Part shown: one piece after another, positions 1-55,186 of the stretch
Layout of the letters: each line of letters starts with the position of its first letter
Position numbering within the stretch: position 1 is the stretch's first letter
NCBI RefSeq assembly: GCF_903064525.1
Contig: NZ_LR797830.1
Span: 1,054,001 to 1,118,000, forward strand
Length of the DNA stretch: 64,000 nucleotides
DNA from: Methylacidimicrobium sp. AP8
GTDB taxonomy: Bacteria; Verrucomicrobiota; Verrucomicrobiia; Methylacidiphilales; Methylacidiphilaceae
Reading direction: 5' to 3'
The notes under the pieces: generated by a model
Seen by the model: only the letters and a program-made list of their open reading frames with translations
Told to the model about the DNA's origin: nothing
Databases searched by the model: none
Position numbers and translations under genes: made by a program

Positions 1-265
1 GTTCGATGGCTTCCCGGACGACCTGCGCCCGTGCGGCCAGGAAGAGGAGGAGTTCGGCTTCCGGACAGATCGAAAGTTCGGGGGTTCGCTCCTTGAGCAA
101 GGCGCGGAGCCGCTCCCCAAGCAGAGTGCCGCCCGGCTCCCGGACGGTGAGGACCCGGTGGCCCAAAGCGCGCAGCCGGGCTTCGAGCCGGCGGACTTGG
201 GTCGACTTGCCGGCTCCTTCCGACCCCTCGAAGGTGATCAGGCGGATCGGTCGGGGGAGGCTCAT
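1..265 (-). CDS. tmk: Thymidylate kinase, N-terminal part (runs off window)
   Basis: Thymidylate kinase phosphorylates dTMP to dTDP in the cytosol. Only the first 88 codons lie in the window; the rest is beyond base 1. The visible protein begins MSLPRPIRLITFEG and contains the P-loop GSEGAGKST, followed by the REPGGT motif that contacts the nucleotide in this family. The ATG at 265 overlaps the cysS stop as ATGA, so translation is probably coupled to cysS. The gene is too short to be in a standard ORF list because of truncation, but the two motifs make the identification firm. Confidence 0.9.
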   Translation of the reverse strand, partial: MSLPRPIRLITFEGSEGAGKSTQVRRLEARLRALGHRVLTVREPGGTLLGERLRALLKERTPELSICPEAELLLFLAARAQVVREAIE

Positions 266-1659
266 TTCCTCCGGAGCTCCTGGCCGCCGGGGGTATCCCG
301 GACGGTCCATCCCTCCTTTTCGATCGCTTCCCGCAGCAAGTCGCTCTGCGGCCAATCCTTCCGCTTCCGCGCCTCCGCCCGCCGGGCGGCCATCTCCTGC
401 ACGTGCGGCGGGATCGCATCCTGCGGCTCGCCGAGGCCGAGGATGGCATCGATCGCCTTCCAGATCGACGGCAGATCCGGCAGAGGGGCGCCGAGATCGA
501 TGGCCCGGTTGGTGGCGCGGAGGAATTCGAAGAAATGGCCCAGAGCCTCCGGGAGGTTGAGGTCGTCGGCCAGGGAGGCGCAGAATTTGTCCAGGAACTC
601 GTTGCCGACCGGAGACCCGGCAGCGAACCGTTCGGCGGGAAGGGTGCGCCAGCGCGCCGTCCAGTCGTCGATCCGTTCGACGGCCGCCTTGGCCGCGGCG
701 AGGCCATCCCAGGTGAAGTTCAAGGTCTGGCGGTAGTGGGCGGACGTGAGCAGGAGGAAGCGAAGATGGCGGCCGGTGTAGCCTTTGGAGAGGATGTCCT
801 CGACCGAGTAGGTGTTGCCGAGGGATTTGGACATCTTCTCTCCGTCGACGAGCATGTGGCTGCAGTGGAGCCAGGTGCGGACGAAAGCCTTTCCGGTCGC
901 GCAGCAGCTCTGCGCGATCTCGTTTTCATGGTGCGGGAAGATCAGATCGACGCCGCCGCAATGGATGTCGAACTCCTGCCCCAGGTAATGCATGCTCATG
1001 GCCGAGCACTCGATATGCCAGCCGGGCCTCCCTCTGCCCCAGGGAGAATCCCAACCGACCTCCCCATCCTCGGGCTTCCAGGCTTTCCAGAGGGCGAAGT
1101 CGCCCACGCTCTCCTTGATGTATTCATCCTCCGCAATCCGGGTGCCGGGCTGGAGCCCCTGGCGATCGAGGTGGGCGAGCTTCCCGTAGTTAGGGTAGGA
1201 GCTGATCCGGAAGTAGACCGAGCCGTCTTCGCCTACGTAGGCATGTCCTTTCCGAAGCAGCTCCTCGATCAGGGCGATCATGATCCCGATGTGGTCGGTC
1301 GCCTTGGGGTGGTGATCCGGGAGCAGGATGTGAAGGATCTTCAGGTCTTCCTCGAAGAGGCGGATGTACCGGCTCGTGAATTCCCGGAGCGGAAGGGATG
1401 CCGCCCGCGCCGCGGCGATCGTCTTGTCGTCGACGTCGGTGTAATTCATGACCGATTCGGGCTCGAAGCCGAAAAGCCGGAGGACCCGCCGGAGAAGGTC
1501 GACGAAGAGAAAGGTCCGGAAGTTCCCGATGTGGGCCCGTCCATAGACCGTCGGACCGCAGGCGTAAAGGCGGACCTTGGGCGGGGAGAGCGGTTGGAAC
1601 TCCTCCCGCCGACGGGAGAGGGTGTTGAAGAAATGCAGGCGGTGGCGGCAGCGGATCAT
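262..1659 (-). CDS. cysS: Cysteinyl-tRNA synthetase
   Basis: This class I aminoacyl-tRNA synthetase charges tRNA-Cys with cysteine. The 465-residue length is normal for CysRS. The zinc ligand Cys34 sits in CGPTVYG, the HIGH signature is present as HIGN (residues 43-46), and KMSKSLGN occurs in the C-terminal half of the catalytic domain. Further zinc-site features are visible in WHIECSAM and HCGGVDLIFPHHENE. The ATG at 1659 follows the stop of the upstream disulfide reductase gene by 4 bases, and its own stop overlaps tmk, so three genes form a compact minus-strand unit. Confidence 0.97.
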   Translation of the reverse strand: MIRCRHRLHFFNTLSRRREEFQPLSPPKVRLYACGPTVYGRAHIGNFRTFLFVDLLRRVLRLFGFEPESVMNYTDVDDKTIAAARAASLPLREFTSRYIRLFEEDLKILHILLPDHHPKATDHIGIMIALIEELLRKGHAYVGEDGSVYFRISSYPNYGKLAHLDRQGLQPGTRIAEDEYIKESVGDFALWKAWKPEDGEVGWDSPWGRGRPGWHIECSAMSMHYLGQEFDIHCGGVDLIFPHHENEIAQSCCATGKAFVRTWLHCSHMLVDGEKMSKSLGNTYSVEDILSKGYTGRHLRFLLLTSAHYRQTLNFTWDGLAAAKAAVERIDDWTARWRTLPAERFAAGSPVGNEFLDKFCASLADDLNLPEALGHFFEFLRATNRAIDLGAPLPDLPSIWKAIDAILGLGEPQDAIPPHVQEMAARRAEARKRKDWPQSDLLREAIEKEGWTVRDTPGGQELRRK

Positions 1660-1663
1660 GGGT

Positions 1664-3113
1664 TCATCGGCTTCCGTCGAGGGCGGGAGACCCGGACGCC
1701 CGGCGCCGGGCGACCAGCCGATCGATCTCTTCGGCCGGATAGGTCAGAATCTCGGAGAGGGTGGGATGATAGTGGGGTAGCCGGGCCAAGTCGCCTGCCG
1801 TGGCGCGGACGGACTGGAGGGCGACGAGCTCATGGATGAGCTCCGACGCTTCGGGGCCCGCGATCCCCGCCCCGAGGAGCTCGCCGTTCTCGGGGTCCGC
1901 CAGCAGCTTGACGAAGCCTTTGGTTCGTCCCATCAGAATCGATTTGCCGTGATCGGCGAAAGGGTACCGGGCGACAACCACCGGGCGGCCGGCGAGGCGC
2001 GCAGCGGCCTCGGTCAGGCCCAGGCGGGCCATTTGCGGTTCGGTAAAGACAATTTCCATCGCAAGCCGGTAATCGAGGCGGCGAAACGGTCCGCCGAGGC
2101 CCATCGCCTGCCGGGCCGCATTCTCTCCGGCCGCCTCTCCTTGGAGCACTGCGATGTGGACGACCTCCTCGATTCCGGTAACGTCGCCTGCGGCGAAGAT
2201 GTGGAGCACGCATGTCCGCATTTCGGCATCGATGGCGGGAGCCCGAGAATGCGCTTTGATCCCGGCGGCCGAGAGGCGGAGCCCTTCTACGGCCGGGGAC
2301 CGCCCGGTGGCCAAGAAAATCTCCTCGGCCACCAAGTCCTGGACTGCTTCCTGTCGGACGATGCGGAGCCGCTTCCGCTCTCCGCACCGGTCCGCGGAAA
2401 GAAGGGAGGCGTGGGTGAAAAGCTCGATCCCCTCTTCCCGAAAGGCCTCTTCCAGTACGACGGCGAGGTCCGGATCGAACCGTTTGAGGAGATGGGCTCC
2501 CCGCTGGACGAGAGAGACGGCGGTGCCGAGCCTGGCAAAGAACTGGGCGTATTCGACGGCGACCGGCCCGCCGCCCAACACGATGAGGCTTTCCGGGAGC
2601 TTGTCCTGCTCGAGGACGGTGTTACTGTCCCAGAAGCCCACCTCCCGGAGCTCGGGCAGGGGGAGGGCTGATCCGTGATCCGGTGGCGATCACGAAGGTC
2701 TTGCTGCGCAGGCGGCTCTTCTGACCGTCCCGGTGGGTCAGCTCGACGTGATCGGCGTCGAGAAAGGCGGCGTGGGCGCGGATCAGCCGGAAGCCGCCTT
2801 TGGCGAGGTCTTTTTGACGGTCGGCGGCAAACTCCGAGACGAGCCGCCGGGTCCGGGCCAGGATTGCGGAAAAATCGGCTCGTACCGGCCGCACCTCCAG
2901 GCCGAAGAGCCCCGCCTCCCGGCTGTCGTGCCAGCGCCGACTCGCTTCGAGCAGGGCCTTGGTCGGCATGCAGCCGGCCAGGATACAGAGGCCGCCCAGT
3001 CGCTCCGCTCCGTCCACCAAGGCTGTGCGCGCCCCCATGGCGGCCGCAGTCCGCGCCGCGGCGAAGCCCGCGCTGCCTCCGCCGATGACCGTTACGTCAA
3101 ATACCGGCACCAT
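1664..3113 (-). pseudogene. Frameshifted class I disulfide oxidoreductase (Lpd/MerA-like)
   Basis: The product is a flavoprotein of the dihydrolipoamide dehydrogenase/mercuric reductase family, read in two frames. The N-terminal part starts at the ATG at 3113, which has GGAGG seven bases upstream. It has the FAD motif IGGGSAG and the redox pair Cys43-x4-Cys48 in GGLCILAGCMPTK. It runs to ATGSRISPP and then leaves frame. The remainder (VLGGGPVAVEYAQFFA NAD-binding fold and the dimer-interface motif HYHPTLSEILTYPAEE) lies one frame away. The switch falls at a G5 run at 2659-2663 (C5 on the coding strand); removing one C restores a protein of about 482 residues. Either a real recent frameshift or a homopolymer sequencing error would explain this. 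The exact substrate cannot be told; no 2-oxoacid dehydrogenase or mer genes are adjacent. Confidence 0.8.
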
Positions 3114-3193
3114 TCCTTTGCCTCCGGACTCCGGCTCCATACCCCCCTTACGTCGCCTCGCGCTTCTGCCCTCCGTTGTGATGCGGATCGGTC

Positions 3194-3898
3194 TCAGGAG
3201 CACCCACCGACGAGGGCGAGCACCGGCTTGAACTGGGCCAAATCCGGCAACAGCAGGGTCGGCCGATAGGCGGCGAGCTCCGAGAGGGAATAGCCCCCGG
3301 TGGCCACGGCGATAGAATAGGCGCCGATTGCTTGCGCGCAAAGCACGTCGTAAGGGGTATCGCCGATCAAGAAGATCTGCCGGGCGCAGAGGGTATCGCC
3401 CCATCGCTCCCGGAGGAACGCGAAGGCGGCCCGCGCCACCTCGTTCCGACACTCCCGCCTGTCACCGAAGGAGCCGAACGCGAAGAAACGTCGCAGCCCG
3501 AAGCGGTCGAGCTTGATCTCGGCTCCGCGCTCGAAGTTTCCCGTGAGCAGACCCTGCGTCCAACCCGGTGTCTGTTCGATCGTGGAAAGCATCGGCTCCA
3601 CCCCGGGAAAGACCTGTCCGGAGCAGGCCGCGATCTCTTCCTGCAGATGTTCGAGGTAGGTGTCGCGGAATCGGACCACGTTCTCTTCGGACCAGGGGAT
3701 TCCGAACCGCGTGAAGATCTGCCGGACGATCCGGGAATCGGTTTGGCCCCGGTAGTCCAGCTCGTGCAGGGCGAGATCTTTTCCGTAGAGGGTCCGGGCG
3801 GTACGGATGATCGCCCTCTCTCCTGCCCCTCCGCTATGCAGAAGCGTGCCGTCGATATCCCAAAGGATGACGCGATGCGGATTCACGGTAAAACACAC
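3194..3898 (-). CDS. HAD-superfamily phosphatase (phosphoglycolate-phosphatase-like)
   Basis: This is a cytosolic haloacid-dehalogenase-fold hydrolase of 234 residues. Motif I is DIDGTLLHSG, with the nucleophilic Asp and the DxD general acid. The LLTGN stretch corresponds to motif II and LIGDTPYDV to motif IV. A helical cap of about 70 residues between motifs I and II resembles phosphoglycolate phosphatase and beta-phosphoglucomutase relatives. The substrate cannot be assigned from sequence. The start is GTG at 3898; a second GTG four codons later (before NPHRVILWDIDG) is equally possible. It is on the same strand as fabI, 18 bases downstream of it. Confidence 0.75.
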   Translation of the reverse strand: MCFTVNPHRVILWDIDGTLLHSGGAGERAIIRTARTLYGKDLALHELDYRGQTDSRIVRQIFTRFGIPWSEENVVRFRDTYLEHLQEEIAACSGQVFPGVEPMLSTIEQTPGWTQGLLTGNFERGAEIKLDRFGLRRFFAFGSFGDRRECRNEVARAAFAFLRERWGDTLCARQIFLIGDTPYDVLCAQAIGAYSIAVATGGYSLSELAAYRPTLLLPDLAQFKPVLALVGGCS

Positions 3899-3916
3899 AC
3901 CCTCGGCAGCCGGCGG

Positions 3917-4693
3917 CTAGGCGCCCAGGATCGAATAGCCGCCGTCGAGATAGATCGTCTGCCCGGTGATCGCGGCTCCTCCTTCGCTGGCCAGAAAGAC
4001 GGCGGCAGCCCCGATTTCCGCCGGCTCCACCAGCTTCCGCAAGGGAGCCTTCTCCTGGTGATGCTTGAGCATCCGGGTAAAGCCCGGGATCCCGCGGGCG
4101 GCGAGGGTGTTGACCGGACCCGGGCTCAGCGCGTTGACCCGGATCCCCCGCGGCCCGAGCTCGTAGGCCAGATAGCGGACCGAGGCTTCCAAGGCCGCCT
4201 TGGCGGTTCCCATGATATGATATTGCGGCGTCACCTTCTCCGACCCGTAGTAGGTGAGGGTTAGCAACAGCCCGCCGCGAGTCATGAGCCCCTTCGCGCG
4301 CCGCGCGATCGCCAGAAACGAATAGACGCTGATGTCGAAGGTAGTAAGGAAATCGGTCCGCTTGACGTCGGAAAGCTCGCCGTCAAGCGCCTCCTTCGGC
4401 GCAAAGGCGACGCTGTGCAGGACTAGGTCGACGGTAGGCGTTGCAGCCGCGACCTCGGCGAAAAAGGAATCGAGCTGCCGATCGTCGCCGACGTCACAGC
4501 CGATCGCTTTTCCCGGCGCCGGCAGGGACCGAGCCAGCTCTTCGACATTTTCGCGCAACCGTTCTCCTTGGTAGCCGAGGACGAGCGAGGCGCCGGCCGC
4601 GCTCCAGGCCTGCGCGATCGCCCAAGCGAGGCTTCTCTTGTTGGCCACTCCGAAGACGAGGCCGGTTTTCCCTTCGAGGGATTCCGTTTTCAT
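3917..4693 (-). CDS. fabI: Enoyl-ACP reductase (NADH)
   Basis: FabI reduces trans-2-enoyl-ACP in the last step of each fatty-acid elongation cycle. The 258-residue product is a short-chain-dehydrogenase-fold protein beginning MKTESLEGKTGLVFGVANKRS, with the FabI-type nucleotide loop. It has the FabI catalytic arrangement Tyr-x6-Tyr-x3-x-Lys in YGSEKVTPQYHIMGTAKAA. The C-terminus TGQTIYLDGGYSILG is typical. I chose the ATG at 4693 because an in-frame upstream TTG adds ten residues outside the family's usual N-terminus. It is the housekeeping enoyl reductase and stands apart from the ketosynthase cluster at 52-57 kb. Confidence 0.93.
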   Translation of the reverse strand: MKTESLEGKTGLVFGVANKRSLAWAIAQAWSAAGASLVLGYQGERLRENVEELARSLPAPGKAIGCDVGDDRQLDSFFAEVAAATPTVDLVLHSVAFAPKEALDGELSDVKRTDFLTTFDISVYSFLAIARRAKGLMTRGGLLLTLTYYGSEKVTPQYHIMGTAKAALEASVRYLAYELGPRGIRVNALSPGPVNTLAARGIPGFTRMLKHHQEKAPLRKLVEPAEIGAAAVFLASEGGAAITGQTIYLDGGYSILGA

Positions 4694-47645: not shown

Positions 47646-48065
47646 GCCTGCCGCGATTGCCGCACGGCCCGGGCTTTACCTGGATCGACGAGGTGGAGGT
47701 CGATCGGGAGAGAGCGAGCGCCCGCGCAAAAACTTTTCTCGATCCGTCGCTGCTTGTCTTCGCGGATCACTTTCCCGGCCGGGCGATCTTTCCCGGGGTC
47801 CTGCTGGTCGAGTGCGGAGCCCAGGCCGCGGGATGCCTCTGGTCCGAACTTCTGGGCGTGACGCATCCGCAGCCCCTCCTGCTGGCGCGGATTCAAGCAT
47901 TCCGATTCCGACGGCCCGCCTTGCCCGGCCAGACTCTTGTTGTGGAGATCCGGCGGGAACGCTTACGGCAGGCTGGCGGAATTCTCCGTATCCATTTACG
48001 AATCGGAGGAGCCGCTCGCCGAAGGACGCATCTGGCTCGCGCGGGTCGACGGGAACGGGCGATAG
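47642..48065 (+). pseudogene. FabZ-like hot-dog dehydratase, frameshifted near the C-terminus
   Basis: The product would be a 3-hydroxyacyl-ACP dehydratase of about 140 residues. The active-site motif is ADHFPGRAIFPGVLLVECGAQAAG split as ADHFPGRAIFPG and VLLVECGAQAAG, with the catalytic His and Glu. After VVEIRRERLR the expected C-terminus appears one frame over, as RLAEFSVSIYESEEPLAEGR, ending at the stop at 48063-48065. The switch falls near 47966-47972 and needs loss of one base to restore frame. Without that correction the reading frame runs on antisense to the ligase gene. The start ATG overlaps the previous stop. A sequencing error would also explain this. Confidence 0.7.
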
Positions 48066-49522
48066 ATATCGTGAAAAAGCGCCCGCAGCGATTTTTCCTC
48101 GACCTTCCCTCGTGCGTTGCGGGGAAGCGCCGGAAGGCAGACGAGAAAGCGCGGGATCTTCCATTCCGGCGCGACATCGGCCAGGAGCCGCAGGAGCTCG
48201 CTTGCGCTTTTCGGGCTTTCCGCGGCGGCGATCAAATAGCTTCGGGTTCGGCCGCGCACGCCGCGAACATGGGCGTCGGTCACCGACGGGAGCCGACGCA
48301 ATAGGGCTTCGACTTCGGCCGGATGGATTTTACGGCCGCCTATCGTGATGACCGGATCGGCGCGGCCGAGCAAGCGTATCTCTCCCCGATCGGTCCACTC
48401 GGCGAGGTCGGGAAGGGTGATCCGTCGGCGACGGCCGAAGAGGGCTCTGCTGGAAACGGAGACGCGTCGAGTGCGCGTGATCGTGACCGAGACGCGGGGC
48501 AGCGGAGTGCCGACGGAGCGGCCTGCTAGGGTGGCCTCGCCGGAACCGTCATAGCTGATGCTCCCGGTTTCGGACGACCCGTAAAGGCTGTGGATCTTCA
48601 CAGAAAAGCGTTCCTGGATGCGTTGGGCCGTTTCCGCCGGCAGAGCGGCACCCGCGGAAACGGCGATCCGGAGGGATGGAAGGGGCAACGGCCTGGGCAG
48701 CTGCCCCAACGCGCGCCAGACATCGGGAACCGAAGGAAAGAAGGTGATCCGATGGCTTCGAATCCATCTCGGAATCTGGCTTGCCAGGAACGTCGCGGCC
48801 GAGACGAGGCGCATGCCCCGAAGCAGGAAGGGGAGGACCAAGCTTCCGAGAGCGTAGGAGTGTCCGAGCGGAAGGAGGGCCAAGGCTCGGTCGTTTTCTC
48901 CCGTGCCCATGGCGCAGGAGGTGTTCCATCCGTCTTCGATCATGGCTTCGGCGGAGAAGGGGAGCGGCACGGCTTCCCGCCGGCTTCCCGAAGAAAGCTT
49001 GACGACAGCGATTCCGGCGCGTCCGATTCGTCGAGGGGCAAGCCGTTCCCAGCGATGCGGTGTCCACAGGAACGAGGCGCCCAGCCGTTGGGCCGTCGGC
49101 GCTAGCTCTCCCTCCGGGATCGTAGCGTCCAGCGGCATGGCTGCGGCTCCCGCCGCCTGGCAAGCGAGAAAAGCCCCGATCCACTCCGGCCCGTTCGGCA
49201 AAGAGAAGGCGATCCAGGCGTTGCGCGCGTCGGACAGATGCTCGTGCGCAAGGGCTCGCGCCGCCGAATCGATTTCACGAAAGGAAATCCACCGATCGGA
49301 TTCCAAGGGAAGGAAGGCGGGTTCCTCCGCCAGACGTGCCGCGGTGCGTTCCCAGGCCTTCCAGAGAGCGGTCGCGCAGGGAAATGCCGTCGGAGGCGCA
49401 GGGGCGCCTTGTGCTTGTTCCTTTCGGAGTGACGGCGCGGCTTTGCTCCGGGCCGGGATCTGGAGCGGCCGGCTCCCGTCGGTCGGTTCCGTCTCGGATC
49501 GACTACCAACTTTGTGAGCCAT
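47996..49522 (-). CDS. AMP-forming acyl-activating enzyme (acyl-CoA/ACP synthetase-like)
   Basis: ANL-superfamily enzymes adenylate a carboxylic acid and pass it to CoA or a carrier protein. The 508-residue protein has an atypical A3 core (KLSSGSRREAVPLPFSA instead of TSGTTGxPK), the A5 motif HSLYGSSETGSISYDG, the A8 hinge LGRADPVITIGGRKIHPAEVE, and the catalytic Lys region RNARGKVEEKSL. The start at ATG 49522 is preferred over an upstream reading. It converges with the dehydratase gene, overlapping by 70 bases. It is probably the starter-activating enzyme of the pathway at 47-57 kb, but this rests on context. Confidence 0.78.
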   Translation of the reverse strand: MAHKVGSRSETEPTDGSRPLQIPARSKAAPSLRKEQAQGAPAPPTAFPCATALWKAWERTAARLAEEPAFLPLESDRWISFREIDSAARALAHEHLSDARNAWIAFSLPNGPEWIGAFLACQAAGAAAMPLDATIPEGELAPTAQRLGASFLWTPHRWERLAPRRIGRAGIAVVKLSSGSRREAVPLPFSAEAMIEDGWNTSCAMGTGENDRALALLPLGHSYALGSLVLPFLLRGMRLVSAATFLASQIPRWIRSHRITFFPSVPDVWRALGQLPRPLPLPSLRIAVSAGAALPAETAQRIQERFSVKIHSLYGSSETGSISYDGSGEATLAGRSVGTPLPRVSVTITRTRRVSVSSRALFGRRRRITLPDLAEWTDRGEIRLLGRADPVITIGGRKIHPAEVEALLRRLPSVTDAHVRGVRGRTRSYLIAAAESPKSASELLRLLADVAPEWKIPRFLVCLPALPRNARGKVEEKSLRALFHDIYRPFPSTRASQMRPSASGSSDS

Positions 49523-49683
49523 GCAAGCGAGGCCCCGCCATAACGGCGGCGGAGACTCATAACGCTTTTGCTCTCGCGAAGGCGAGCGTAATCGAGCGGA
49601 GAACGAGCGCAAGCGGCGACCCACTGTGAAGAAAAAATAAAATCTTGCCCGGGCTGCCGGTTTCCGGCATAAGGCAATGCCCG

Positions 49684-50262
49684 ATGGCTTTTGCTAAGCT
49701 TCTTTTTAGCGGTTCGGTCGTATTTTCGGTTGCGGTAGCGGCTTACGGCCAGAAAGGAGCGGCGGTCTCCTCCATCCCGGTGAGCCCGAATCCCAGGGCG
49801 TTCGTGCAGGCGCTCCCCAAGCAAAAGCACTCCCGCGGGATGTGCGCGCGTGCGGTGCGCATGGCCGTAGAAAAGCTCACGGGCCGGAAACTCGAGCGGA
49901 GGGACTATGCCAAGGAGTACGGAGTGCCGCTTCTGAAGACCGGCTGCTATCGGCGGATCTCCGCCAACGTGGTGCCGAAGAACTACGACGTGCGGATCCT
50001 TCTACCGAGAAAGAGAAGCCACTACGGCCATATCGAGGTGTTTTACCAGGGGCACTGGTACTCCGACTTCCGGCAGCCGGGTTCTCTTTGGAATGTTTGG
50101 CCCAAGGAGTATGCCGGCATCCAGCATTACCGATTCGTCGGTCAGACGTCCCCGCAACCGACAGAACGACGGGCGATTCCGGTCCAGCACGTGAGCCGGA
50201 CGGGCGCGCGCCGGGCGAACCTGCGGACCGCCGGGGCTGCCTTGGCCAGCCCGGTCTTTTAA
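49684..50262 (+). CDS. Secreted CHAP/NlpC-like cysteine hydrolase, putative
   Basis: This 192-residue protein has a signal peptide (MAFAKLLFSGSVVFSVAVAAYG). The mature part has RGMCARAVRMAVEKLTG with a candidate catalytic Cys, then HYGHIEVFYQGHWYSDFRQ with a candidate His and a Trp. This Cys..His spacing and the YGHI..F pattern resemble CHAP and NlpC/P60 peptidoglycan amidases. A Pro/Arg-rich tail follows. The upstream 160 bases hold no gene that I can support. The peptidase assignment is tentative because the family match is only by motif. Confidence 0.5.
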   Translation: MAFAKLLFSGSVVFSVAVAAYGQKGAAVSSIPVSPNPRAFVQALPKQKHSRGMCARAVRMAVEKLTGRKLERRDYAKEYGVPLLKTGCYRRISANVVPKNYDVRILLPRKRSHYGHIEVFYQGHWYSDFRQPGSLWNVWPKEYAGIQHYRFVGQTSPQPTERRAIPVQHVSRTGARRANLRTAGAALASPVF

Positions 50263-50385
50263 CCTCCGGCTTCCTGCCGTTTCTGCGCAAGGAGTCGAAA
50301 AGGAGCAGGCCTGGAACGACCCGGTTGCGCTCCGGCAGTACTCTTGCGGCGTTCCGGAAGCAGCAGGGCTCGGGAATGAGCCGGG

Positions 50386-50772
50386 TTATTTGTCGACCGT
50401 GCGCTTGCCGGTGAAAAATTCTTCCAAGTCGCCGCCGATCCCGCGGAAGGTTTTGTCCACGTCGTTCCCGAACTTCCCGAACGCGTCGGACTTGCCCGTT
50501 TTTTTGGACTGCAAACCGTGCTTCCTGCCGGCAGACCGCTTCGTGCCCGCGCCTGCGGTTTTGCCGGCGGATGCCTGATTCCGGCCGGCAGAAGAAGGAG
50601 AACCGTTCCGCGCTCCGGATTGCGCCGTCTTCCCTCCCGAAGGAGACGCCGCCGCGGACGCCGGAGCAGCGGCAGCACGACACAGCAGGGCAGCCGGCGT
50701 GAAGAGCGAAGCGGTGGCCAGCGCCCCGGTCGCCAGCAAAGAGAGCGAACGCGCAGAAAGTCCGTCCCTCAT
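50386..50772 (-). CDS. Small secreted protein A with EEFF-RTVDK C-terminal motif
   Basis: I do not recognise this family. The 128-residue protein has a signal peptide (RSLSLLATGALATASLFTPA), a low-complexity Ala/Gly/Ser/Lys-rich middle, and ends in KTFRGIGGD followed by LEEFFTGKRTVDK. The last 22 residues share 16 identities with the C-terminus of the neighbouring gene at 50965-51399. The body of the two proteins is otherwise unlike. The conserved tail suggests the functional part is the C-terminal helix. The ATG at 50772 follows a region with no other gene. Confidence 0.65.
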   Translation of the reverse strand: MRDGLSARSLSLLATGALATASLFTPAALLCRAAAAPASAAASPSGGKTAQSGARNGSPSSAGRNQASAGKTAGAGTKRSAGRKHGLQSKKTGKSDAFGKFGNDVDKTFRGIGGDLEEFFTGKRTVDK

Positions 50773-50830
50773 GCTTTAATACGAATAATCATACGGCGTA
50801 GATCCGATTTATCCAGCGAGAAGAAAAGAA

Positions 50831-50878
50831 AAACGGTTCGACAACCGGGTGCGCATGCCGGTGAAGAACGAACCGTTT
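50831..50878 (-). terminator. Rho-independent terminator downstream of small protein B
   Basis: AAACGGTTCG (50869-50878 on the minus strand) pairs with CGAACCGTTT (50831-50840) in a perfect 10-bp stem around an ACCGG/CCGGT inner hairpin. On the minus strand the stem is followed by TTCTTTTCTTCT. It lies 86 bases past the stop of the gene at 50965-51399. The loop carries a stretch resembling the end of small protein A. Confidence 0.7.
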
Positions 50879-50964
50879 CCGGCGTGAAGCCGCCCGCGAG
50901 AGTGCGACCTACCCATAAGATGGGAAGTGCTCGCCGGGGCCACAGACAGCCTGCCCGCGACGGC

Positions 50965-51399
50965 TCAATCATCCTTATCCACCGTTCGGGTTCCGACGAA
51001 AAACTCTTCGAAGTCGGCGCCGATCTTCCGGAAGAGCTTCGCGATCTGAATGCCGACGGGTTCGGGCTTGGCGGCCTGCGTCGTTTTCGCGCTTTTGCGC
51101 TGCTGCTCCGTCGAGGACAATCGGCTCGGCCGGGGTTGTGCTGGAGCGGTTTTGCGGCCGGTCTGCGGGCGGGCGAGGGGCCCTGGCTTGTCTAACGAAT
51201 CGGTTCCCGCTGCCGTCGGCGGGACGCTGGCCGGTTCATCGGAGTGGGTGGTGGTCCATTCGGATCGATCGGCACCGGCTGCGCTGCTGCCGTATGCCGT
51301 AAAGAGGGACGGAAAAAACTCGGCGCTCAGGAGCCAGCCTGCGCTTACCATCGCCGGAAGAACAGCGTAACGGGCCGCGGCCCGAACCACGGATCGCAC
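50965..51399 (-). CDS. Small secreted protein B with EEFF-RTVDK C-terminal motif
   Basis: This 144-residue protein is a paralogue of the gene at 50386-50772 in its last 22 residues. The start is GTG at 51399, giving a signal peptide (VVRAAARYAVLPAMVSAGWL, cut near SSA). A Pro/Thr/Ser-rich linker follows, then KLFRKIGAD and FEEFFVGTRTVDKDD. The function is unknown. A conserved pattern K-x-F-R-x-I-G-x-D, x-E-E-F-F-x-G-x-R-T-V-D-K is shared with protein A. Both genes are on the minus strand, in tandem, and a terminator lies between them. Confidence 0.6.
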   Translation of the reverse strand: MRSVVRAAARYAVLPAMVSAGWLLSAEFFPSLFTAYGSSAAGADRSEWTTTHSDEPASVPPTAAGTDSLDKPGPLARPQTGRKTAPAQPRPSRLSSTEQQRKSAKTTQAAKPEPVGIQIAKLFRKIGADFEEFFVGTRTVDKDD

Positions 51400-51582
51400 G
51401 CCGGAAAGCTGACCGAGGTGGCACTGCGAATCAAGAAGAAAATTGACAACGTATTTAGACAGATCAGCTTCTAGGGAATGAACGCCTGCCGGCACGACGT
51501 TGCGGAGACAAAAATCCGAGGTGGCGGAGAGAGGCGTTGGACCCGGGCTCGGCTCGACAGCGAGATCTCTGGGAGCGTGCGA

Positions 51583-51590
51583 GGGGGGGG
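51583..51590. repeat. G8 homopolymer tract near the start of the radical SAM gene
   Basis: Eight G residues separate a frame reading DLWERAR (start TTG 51537 with GGAGAG upstream) from the frame reading AREPIFGNRIFVRGVIE. A ninth G would join them. Such tracts can vary by slippage during replication, or can be miscalled in sequencing. Confidence 0.6.
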
Positions 51591-52158
51591 CGCGCGAGCC
51601 GATTTTCGGCAACCGGATTTTCGTCCGTGGGGTGATTGAAGTCGGCAATTTTTGCCGGCAAAACTGCATGTATTGCGGGATGCGCCGGGAGAACGGCGAT
51701 CTTCGCCGATTCCGCTTGGCGCGGGAAGCCGTTCGGCGCCTGCTCGAAGAGCGTCTGCCCGCGTCCGTTACGGACCTGAACTTCCAGGCGGGGGAGGATC
51801 CTGTCGTCCTTCGGGAGGTGGTGCTGCCGGTGATCGAAGATCTGGCAAAGGAAAGCCGGCTCGGGATCAGCCTCTGCATGGGAACTCTCGCGTTTCGTCT
51901 TTACGATGCCGCGAAACGAGCCGGCGCACGGGGATACATCCTCAAGTTGGAAACGGGGGATGCCCGGCATTATCGGCTGCTGCAACGCCCGGGAACGCTG
52001 GAAAGCCGGATCGAGGCGATCCGGTATCCGGCCGAAACGGGTTGGCGCGTCTCCTTTGGCTGGATCCACGGGTTGCCGCAGCAGACCCCTGCTCAGGAAG
52101 CGGAGACGCTCGATTTGCTCTGTTCGCTGCCGCTTTCCGGTTGCGGCGTGAGCCCTTT

Positions 52159-52340
52159 GACGGCCATTTCTCACAAATTTCGTAGCCGAGGCGCCGCAAA
52201 TGGGCTTGGGTGCGAGGCGGGCGCAGGTTTTCCACCGGAGCTGTATGAAGACATACTGCGAGGATGGAAAACCAAGCGGGAGCGAAGCAGACGAGCCCGT
52301 TTTGCAAGCCGTAGGAGAAAGCTTGTGAGAAATGGCCGTT
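52159..52340. mobile_element. 182-bp palindromic MITE-like insertion
   Basis: Perfect terminal inverted repeats of 17 bp (ACGGCCATTTCTCACAA at 52160-52176 and its complement at 52323-52339) bound the element. The inner sequence is palindromic about the same axis (52249.5): GGTTTTCCA at 52226-52234 mirrors TGGAAAACC at 52265-52273, and GTATG-AAGA-CATAC forms the centre. No transposase gene fits inside. Deleting 52159-52340 rejoins the radical SAM reading frame as GVSP|FIPGEGTP. The flanks suggest a TT target duplication, though that short sequence could be chance. Confidence 0.85.
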
Positions 52341-52710
52341 CATACCCGGGGAGGGTACTCCGGTCGCTTCCGAACCGCCGGGAGACCTCAACCGCACGCT
52401 CAACGCCGTGGCGGTTCTTCGGCTCTCCTCGTCGCACTGGATGATTCCGGCCGTGAGCGCCCTGAACCTTTGCGACGTTTCCGGGTACGTGCGGGCGATC
52501 GAGGCGGGAGCGAACCTGGCTACCGTCAATCTGACGCCCGACGAATGGCGGGAAGATTACCGAATCTACTGCCGGAGCCGATGGATTATGACCGAGGAGC
52601 GGGTTCTGCGGGCGATCGAGCAGGCGGGCTGCGAGCCGAGCTCGCAGAGTTGGATCGCCGCCTTATCGCCTCGCTGCCGCCTACGTCTCCTCATCCCGAA
52701 ACGAGCAAGC

Positions 52711-53766
52711 CTACGGCTTGAAGAACGGCGGGCGGCGCTCTCTTCGGCCGGCCCCCGGCGCGAAGTGGAGATGGATCCACGACAGCTGGTGGCTGGTACC
52801 CCAAATCGGAACAAGGATTTCCGGCCTCTTTTCGGATAAGAGCGTAGCCGCGCGGATCGTCTGCCATCCGGAGGAGACAGAGAATGCGCTTCCGATATAG
52901 GGATAGGATTCCACGCAAGGGAAGGAGCCGAGCACCTGTCTTTCCAGCGACTCAAGCCACGAGCCCCGCGCCGTCGGATGGACGGGCACATGCGGCAGCC
53001 CTTGGGCGAAGCGGGATGCAATCAGCGGCAGTTCCTTTCGGCTCGCATACGGGAAACTCATCGGCGCGGGTGCAACGGAGAAAAGCCCGCTTTCCGGGCG
53101 GGCGGTCAGAAGCAGCGCAACCGCGCCTTCCGCCGGTCGAAAAGGTCGAGAGGGATGAAGCCAGCTGGCGGAGCGGAAGGCGTCCAGGGTTATGGAGGTG
53201 ATCTCCTCGGAGGCGGCGAGCAGAACCGTCGACGCGTGTCCGAGTTCCAGCCAGATCCTTCCCATCCGGAGTCCTTCCACCCAAGCCGATTCATCTCCGA
53301 CGAGCGAGCAGCTAGGACCGCGAAGGCCGAATACGGCGGCCGCATGGCTGGTAGCCGCATTGTAGACGGTTTCAGGAAAGAGAAGAGGACTGGCGAACCG
53401 CCGCCCTTGGCCTCGATAGCCGGCGAAGAAGCGGGCGCTATGGGAGATGCTGCCGTTGTTGAAGACCGCAATGAGCCCCATTCCGCCTCGATCCGCTGCA
53501 CCGGCTCCGGCCAGCGCTTGTCCGATCGCTTCCACGAGGAACTGTGTAAGCGAGCCCGCCCGGCGAAGCCGCGGCTCTTCCGCCCAAACCTGCCACCGCC
53601 GATCCGATCGGTCCACCGCGAAGACAGGAAAGCTCCGGGTCGGGGCGGAAGCCAGGACCATGGCGCGCTCTTCCGGCGGGACCGGCCGGATCAGGCTTTC
53701 CGGGCCGAATCCGGCGGGGGAAACCACGCCGAGGGCACGCGCGTGGAGGAGCAGACGGTCAGTCAT
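52711..53766 (-). CDS. Ketosynthase-like chain-length-factor partner (non-catalytic)
   Basis: This 351-residue thiolase-fold protein resembles beta-ketoacyl synthases but lacks catalytic residues. Where the neighbouring ketosynthase has ANSCSSGTDA, this one has VGDESAWVEG, with Glu in place of the nucleophile Cys, at the same distance from the following GEAD/GHAS strand. No HGTGT motif is present. Such proteins serve as partner subunits (chain-length factors) in type II polyketide and aryl-polyene-like systems. It overlaps the ketosynthase gene by 8 bases, consistent with a heterodimer. Confidence 0.75.
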   Translation of the reverse strand: MTDRLLLHARALGVVSPAGFGPESLIRPVPPEERAMVLASAPTRSFPVFAVDRSDRRWQVWAEEPRLRRAGSLTQFLVEAIGQALAGAGAADRGGMGLIAVFNNGSISHSARFFAGYRGQGRRFASPLLFPETVYNAATSHAAAVFGLRGPSCSLVGDESAWVEGLRMGRIWLELGHASTVLLAASEEITSITLDAFRSASWLHPSRPFRPAEGAVALLLTARPESGLFSVAPAPMSFPYASRKELPLIASRFAQGLPHVPVHPTARGSWLESLERQVLGSFPCVESYPYIGSAFSVSSGWQTIRAATLLSEKRPEILVPIWGTSHQLSWIHLHFAPGAGRRERRPPFFKP

Positions 53767-54991
53767 GTCGGGTAAAGACCAGTGCGGCGTTGGTCCCGCC
53801 GAATCCGGCGTTTACGCTCATCACGTGGGTGAGCGGCTGGAGTGGTTCCTGCGGTCGGACAAGGGCTTGCTCGACTTCGGCAAGGGGAGAGACGGTGTTC
53901 CACTGCGGAGGCAGCCGCCCCGTCCGCAAGGCGAAGATCGAAAAGACGGCTTCGATCGCGCCGGCAGCGCCCAGCGTATGGCCGATGATCGCCTTCACAC
54001 TGCTCATCCGCGGGATCCGCCAGCCGATCCCGAAGAGGCGCGAGTAAGCGCGGGCCTCCGATTCATCGTTCAGGCATGTACCGGTCCCGTGTGCATTCAG
54101 GTACCCGATTTCCCCCGGATCTACTTTCGCGGAAAGGAGGGCCGCCTCGATGGCCCGGCAAAGGGCGGTTCCGTCCGGGGCCGGCTGGGTCAGATGATAG
54201 AGGTCGGTGGCTTGACCGTACCCGCTCAGCAGGCAGAGAGGGCGCGCGCGCCGGCTCGATGCGTGCTCTAGGCTTTCCAGCACCAGAAAGGCCGCGCCTT
54301 CTCCGAGAAGAAGTCCACTTCGCCTCTGGTCGAAGGGAGCGCAACGCCCGGCAGTGAGGATTCGTAACGAATCGAATCCAACGAAGACGGTCTCCGCAAG
54401 AGCCTCGAACCCCCCCGCCAGAACGCAGTCGGCTTCGCCGGACCAGATCATTTGAGCGGCATGGCCGAGCGCATCGGTCCCGCTGGAACAGGAATTGGCG
54501 ATCACGAGCGAGCGGCCGCACAGGCCGAATGCTCGCTGAAGATCGACGGCCTGCTGCTGGGGCTGGTACCGCCCGACCCAACGGAGGCGCCCGCGGCGGC
54601 CTGCGAGAAGCTCGCCGAGAAATCGCTCTCCGAACTCCATGGCTCCTTCGGTGGTGGCCAGGCAGAGGGGGATCTGCGGAAGCCGCACCCGCCCATCGGA
54701 GGTAAGCAGATCCGCCTGCGCGAGGGCTTCCCGAGCGGCCGGAATCGCCAGGCGCGAGGCGCGCGGGAGTTTGCGGGACGTGTGCGAGGGGAGGGAGGGC
54801 AGGCATGCTTGAGCCGCAGAGCGGCAGCGGCATCCTTCCGTATCGAATAGATCGACCGCGCGAGCGCCGTCTTTTCCTTCGAGCAGCCCATCGCAGGAAG
54901 AGCTGACGTCTTCTCCGAGAGCCGTAACCATCCCAACTCCGGTTACGGCGACGATGGGTCTTTGTGTGCTTCGGGTGGCCATGCCCCGCAT
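53759..54991 (-). CDS. Beta-ketoacyl-ACP synthase II-like ketosynthase (FabF family)
   Basis: The catalytic ketosynthase condenses acyl-ACP with malonyl-ACP. The protein of about 410 residues shows the nucleophile Cys in ANSCSSGTDALGH, the first His in NAHGTGTCLNDESE, the Lys/second His in SSVKAIIGHTLGAAGAIEA, and the C-terminal NAGFGGTNAALVF. The fold starts VAVTGVGMVTALGEDV. The ATG is either 54991 or 54982. The gene is divergent from the ACP gene across 195 bases, which probably hold the shared promoters. It differs from the housekeeping set, as no fabG, fabD or fabH is present nearby. Confidence 0.9.
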   Translation of the reverse strand: MRGMATRSTQRPIVAVTGVGMVTALGEDVSSSCDGLLEGKDGARAVDLFDTEGCRCRSAAQACLPSLPSHTSRKLPRASRLAIPAAREALAQADLLTSDGRVRLPQIPLCLATTEGAMEFGERFLGELLAGRRGRLRWVGRYQPQQQAVDLQRAFGLCGRSLVIANSCSSGTDALGHAAQMIWSGEADCVLAGGFEALAETVFVGFDSLRILTAGRCAPFDQRRSGLLLGEGAAFLVLESLEHASSRRARPLCLLSGYGQATDLYHLTQPAPDGTALCRAIEAALLSAKVDPGEIGYLNAHGTGTCLNDESEARAYSRLFGIGWRIPRMSSVKAIIGHTLGAAGAIEAVFSIFALRTGRLPPQWNTVSPLAEVEQALVRPQEPLQPLTHVMSVNAGFGGTNAALVFTRHD

Positions 54992-55186
54992 GCTACCGGA
55001 TAAAGAGCCAGAAGACGATCTAGGAAGGAAAGAAGCGGCGTTATCTTGCCGGGCCCATGGAGGGCCTCTGTGCGCTTGCCGCTGCGGAGGCGGGCTTTAC
55101 CGCGGTCGATGGGGCGGAAAAGAGAAATTTTCGGGTAGACTTCTCCATAGCGTTTTTCTCTAAATACACCCGACCTTTCTGCCTGG

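Follow-up and report, generated by a model that had tools for sequence, protein, structure and literature searches.

A recently amplified MITE in Methylacidimicrobium sp. AP8, most likely moved in trans by a resident IS1380-family transposase

A palindromic segment that interrupts a radical SAM gene of Methylacidimicrobium sp. AP8 is, we conclude with considerable confidence, a recently amplified MITE, most likely moved in trans by the transposase of resident IS elements of the IS1380 family. The segment lies in the window analysed here, a 64,000-nucleotide stretch that corresponds to positions 1054001–1118000 of a single-contig 2.30-Mb genome, and it had been noticed in a preliminary description made from the letters of the window. 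By its IS1380 relatives and by congener contigs (LP2A, M. tartarophylax 4A), the genome belongs within or next to Methylacidimicrobium, whose members are verrucomicrobial methanotrophs. That observation was partly confirmed and its interpretation is supported by our results; what needed correction were the borders of the element, its target duplication, the degree of palindromy, and the number of lesions in the gene, of which a second was found.

Borders of the element and the gene it interrupts

The borders were drawn from 40 or more sister copies in the same genome, and give the following features (coordinates are those of the window; TIR, terminal inverted repeat):

51522–51590, plus strand: N-terminal part of the radical SAM gene, in another frame (a tblastn search with the LP2A-type orthologue shifts frame there)
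51596–52156, plus strand: principal 5' portion of the HydE-like radical SAM gene that the MITE interrupts (PF04055, E-value 6.7e-15; TIGR03956 below cut-off; 69–79% identity to congeners)
52157–52160, no strand: left target duplication TTGA, with one mismatch to TTCA (sister copies; TTCA is present at the insertion point in 4/6 congeners)
52161–52338, plus strand: MITE core of 178 bp, without a transposase (0 differences from the family consensus)
52161–52176, plus strand: left TIR, CGGCCATTTCTCACAA (sister copies; agrees at 15/16 positions with the right end of one IS1380-family element of the same genome)
52226–52273, no strand: central hairpin with arms 52226–52247 and 52252–52273 and a 4-nt loop (arms 77% complementary; DNA and RNA folds)
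52323–52338, minus strand: right TIR, reverse complement of the left (sister-copy comparison)
52339–52342, no strand: right target duplication TTCA (sister copies and congeners)
52339–52836, plus strand: 3' part of the interrupted gene, without internal stop (congener homology to about 52668)

The insert was originally given as 182 bp (52159–52340) with perfect terminal repeats of 17 bp. A palindromic insert does lie there, and the arms 52160–52176 and 52323–52339 do pair; however, 182 bp is the sum of the 178-bp element and one 4-bp duplication, and the TIR proper, perfect in this copy, is 16 bp long because the 17th pair belongs to the target duplication in the window copy. The two flanking tetranucleotides agree at three of four bases, and this single mismatch counts against our explanation.

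The claim that the element had entered a former gene held up well, as the orthologues of all six congeners (6/6) lack the segment and are unbroken at the insertion point, with a contiguous SPFIPGEGTP-type motif (SPFVPGEGTP in one of the six). With a TIGR03956 score of 185.7, the full-length orthologue of the LP2A type stays below the cut-off of 254.6, and we therefore call the protein, whose sequence resembles that of HydE, only a HydE-like radical SAM protein. Upstream there is a frame change, missed in the preliminary description, at or near a G8 tract (51583–51590) where the frame was probably shifted. Together with the MITE this makes two lesions in the gene, unless the G8 change is a homopolymer sequencing error. 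The radical SAM gene adjoins beta-ketoacyl-synthase-like genes on the minus strand (window 47996–55000), and the LP2A-type congener has the same beta-ketoacyl-synthase-like neighbour.

Copies, distribution and fold of the MITE family

Our search of the window found no second copy, in agreement with what had been noticed before, and the proposed search of the complete genome revealed at least 42 full-length copies (about 40–50 near-identical ones), a DNA search giving 40 listed places with 95–100% identity. The TIR pattern matched at 50 forward and 54 reverse positions of this genome, as compared to 1 and 1 for a reversed control pattern; unpaired TIRs, which might have delimited a longer autonomous copy, proved to be either IS1380 ends or ends of the MITE, solo or truncated. 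Nine copies, that of the window among them, are identical to the family consensus and 12 more differ from it by one base, which points to a recent burst; the family has been amplified recently. Perfect 4-bp duplications flank 34 of the 47 near-full copies (chance about 0.5% each), with the consensus YTAR: mostly CTAG, then TTAA, CTAA and TTAG, and rarely TTCA or TCAA. The short length, the TIRs, the 4-bp duplications, the many interspersed copies and the lack of an encoded transposase all fit the initial label of a MITE-like element.

Among the congeners, G003 and G006 have diverged subfamilies (about 77–94%) with TIR variants, e.g., CCGCCATTT and CCTGC(A/C)TGT, and G001, G002, G004 and G005 have MITE remnants. 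There were no MITEs of this family in 33 genomes of other genera and no match to it in a plasmid collection, and the exact TIR-gap-TIR pattern matched nothing in GTDB contigs (own genome left out) or viral contigs. The insertion, seen in an assembly, would be compatible with an assembly artefact or misassembly, a reading made extremely improbable by the dozens of independent sites, each with its site-specific duplication, and by the occurrence of related families in six congeners whose genomes were assembled independently.

In the AP8 genome a block exceeding 4.5 kb is duplicated with 97% identity, at 76.5–81.1 kb (positions 50–4612 of locus L274) and at 797.9–802.4 kb (positions 1–4528 of locus L275). 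Both instances of the block terminate at a MITE copy, and the sequence beyond differs between them. It could have arisen by MITE-ended or IS1380 one-ended mobilisation, or by recombination.

Described initially as fully palindromic, the MITE does fold as one long hairpin, although an imperfect one whose stem has many interior loops; "fully" was an overstatement, given an ungapped self-complementarity of 48% (25% in shuffles, with a shuffle maximum of 39%). The fold is very stable both as single-stranded DNA (−51.7 kcal/mol, z −7.9) and as RNA (−96.8 kcal/mol, z −9.9), a stability reached by 0/200 shuffles. For 35 representatives below 95% identity, bases pair as in the consensus in 92% of cells, the pairing of the central hairpin is largely retained across subfamilies, and the TIR pairs have changes on both sides; inner pairs with two-sided changes number 7 versus 5.5 ± 1.2 in shuffles, 45 of 300 of which reach 7. 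The stem is retained, yet this is no strong proof of a selected RNA. The palindrome probably reflects the origin and retention of a two-ended minimal substrate, and a host function is unnecessary as an explanation for it.

The IS1380-family partner and competing drivers

The preliminary description reasoned that an element without a transposase needs a partner in trans, and proposed a search for an IS with matching terminal repeats. The genome holds about ten near-complete copies (roughly 97–99.8% identical) of an IS of about 1.72 kb whose transposase belongs to the IS1380 family (NF033539, E-value 2.5e-118; PF13701). Full-length copies are flanked by YTAR-type duplications (CTAG, TTAG, CTAA, CTAT), so MITE and IS alike have a 4-bp YTAR duplication, and the IS ends, CCNNSATWTCTCACC, match the MITE TIR at 12–15 of 16 positions (15/16 at the right end of the copy at 508.1–509.8 kb, 12–14/16 at the others), whereas among 228 control 16-mers taken next to YTAR in the window none exceeded 9/16. 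The same end motif lies beside YTAG or YTAA in the related IS1380 copies found in LP2A, M. tartarophylax and Acidobacteria MAGs. With like ends and like target duplications, the MITE very likely does depend on a partner in trans, the mobilisation itself being what we infer from this match. In the Acidobacteria MAGs (L169–L173) the IS1380 transposases are 66–74% identical to those of Methylacidimicrobium, with a similar end motif, a likeness in sequence that suggests transfer between the phyla.

At least four IS copies have an unbroken 462-codon transposase frame (468342, 508227, 1409902, 1939626), and the catalytic residues D160, D238 and E351 are present in invariant columns. A search of the sequences of solved structures with the IS1380 profile gave chance-level matches only; the fold comparison was informative, the predicted structure (pLDDT 84) matching Tn5 transposase (Z 19) and piggyBac (Z 12.9). 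Tn5 and piggyBac transposases are cut-and-paste enzymes with hairpin intermediates, and because the predicted fold resembles both, cut-and-paste in trans is the most likely mechanism for the MITE. The DDE transposase of the resident IS1380 elements would recognise the common end motif, about C-N-N-C-C-A-T-T-T-C-T-C-A-C, excise the MITE, and insert it at a 4-bp YTAR target, usually CTAG, duplicating this target; for the window copy the target was TTCA within the HydE-like radical SAM gene, which the insertion breaks.

MITE and IS have little in common beyond the outer 14–16 bp, so simple internal deletion from the IS copies found does not account for the MITE. Their copy numbers are not parallel among congeners: G003 and G006 have at least 20 MITE matches and 2–4 IS matches, while G001 has 37 IS matches, mostly fragments, versus 2 MITE matches. 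Both points count against IS1380 as the driver, although draft assemblies collapse repeats.

Could the driver be another IS that targets CTAG or YTAR, such as a resident IS1182-family or IS5-group element? IS5-group elements use YTAR, and the IS1182-family copies are, like the MITE, CTAG-flanked, often directly adjoining a MITE or IS1380 copy. MITEPsy1, which has a CTAG or YTAA duplication, is tied to ISPsy2 (PMC3189936). In a comparison that covered the mapped ends of IS1380 and IS1182 elements, the IS1182 ends match the MITE TIR at 5–7/16 positions only. This rules out IS1182, and we consider a driver of this wider kind, IS5-group elements included, very unlikely.

The IS1182-family copies (ends CAGCCTGTCGG) each abut a MITE or IS1380 copy at five loci (L106, L110, L111, L112, L113), as though one element, by making a CTAG, provided the next with its target. 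A one-ended composite of IS1182 and MITE was considered for these loci and rejected, the simpler reading being that insertions occurred repeatedly in the CTAG next to a MITE. A further IS, whose transposase is of the integrase type and about 345 aa long, likewise adjoins MITE copies at CTAG (L276/L277).

Placement in the genome and relation to known systems

The placement of the MITE was compared with that of 391 YTAR sites in 264 kb of sampled sequence, with genes predicted by a home-made codon-usage gene caller. MITE copies avoid genes (8/42 within predicted genes versus 247/391 control sites, p 7e-8) and favour stop codons (15/42 versus 43/391 at a predicted stop, p 8e-5) and convergent gene ends (14/42 versus 22/391 between convergent genes, p 6e-7), the 42 sites being not fully independent as some copies share flanks. 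The window copy is among the few that interrupt a gene. As YTAR contains TAG or TAA, the duplication preserves a stop codon.

This placement is accounted for, with no need of a host role, by purifying selection against insertions that do damage. The enrichment at stop codons and between convergent genes, the largely kept stem with some two-sided changes, and the very stable RNA fold could also be taken to mean that a host function maintains the palindrome, which would act at gene ends as an RNA hairpin or a bidirectional terminator, and that its mobility is past. However, promoter and terminator scans of the MITE gave no promoter match and no U-tract terminator, and an Rfam search gave no match; the inner compensatory changes exceed those of shuffles only mildly; the near-identical copies and fresh duplications indicate recent mobility; and selection against gene damage yields the same placement. 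We regard a host function as highly improbable. Rather unlikely, if less remote, is an IS1380-driven MITE lineage in which the stop-containing YTAR target is a built-in means of avoiding harm: insertions would land on stops and convergent ends, the duplication would rebuild the stop, and excision would perhaps be scarless, as for piggyBac. Should excision indeed be scarless, insertions within genes might be undone again.

A recently active MITE/IS1380 pair in verrucomicrobial methanotrophs connects the IS1380 family, which is related to piggyBac, with a bacterial MITE. The pair shows how such elements reside at gene ends and stop codons while doing little damage, and is a natural system in which mobilisation in trans, the targeting of YTAR and the exactness of excision could be examined. 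We found no description of a MITE in verrucomicrobial methanotrophs, and no report of an IS1380-linked MITE in the open-access literature, a scope outside which subscription journals and ISfinder fall.

The nearest known system in terms of target is MITEPsy1 of Pseudomonas syringae (100 bp, 18-bp TIRs, CTAG or YTAA duplication; PMC3189936), which is likewise short and non-autonomous, with a 4-bp duplication and ends resembling a resident IS, but whose TIR, GGAAGGTCTGAAAAAGCC, is unrelated to the present one. The Chunjie MITE of Geobacter uraniireducens (178–235 bp, about 38 TIR-bearing copies, mostly intergenic and recently active; PMC10969869) is similar in size range, copy number, mostly intergenic placement and recent activity, and differs in host and sequence, in a comparison of the two MITEs themselves. 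IS1380-family elements (NF033539), which include ISEcp1 and ISPme1, share the TIR motif and the YTAR duplication and supply the candidate transposase, but are 1.7 kb long with a transposase gene, of which the MITE has essentially only the ends. DNA next to ISPme1 or ISEcp1 can be mobilised by them (PMC9330008), and mobilisation of this type may bear on the duplicated block that ends in a MITE. IS1380 transposases serve as an outgroup to piggyBac (PMC10813416), with which the present system shares a 4-bp TTAA-like target and the predicted fold match; piggyBac, however, is eukaryotic, has a nearly strict TTAA target as opposed to mostly CTAG here, and is matched less strongly than Tn5. The high-copy extragenic palindromes REP/BIME, with their RAYT transposases, are alike in these respects, but the present MITE has true TIRs and 4-bp target duplications, and does not belong with them because both features point to a DDE transposase, whereas an IS200/IS605-like RAYT would not be expected to produce them. 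The family is new and most likely IS1380-driven, and represents a kind of mobile element that is already known.
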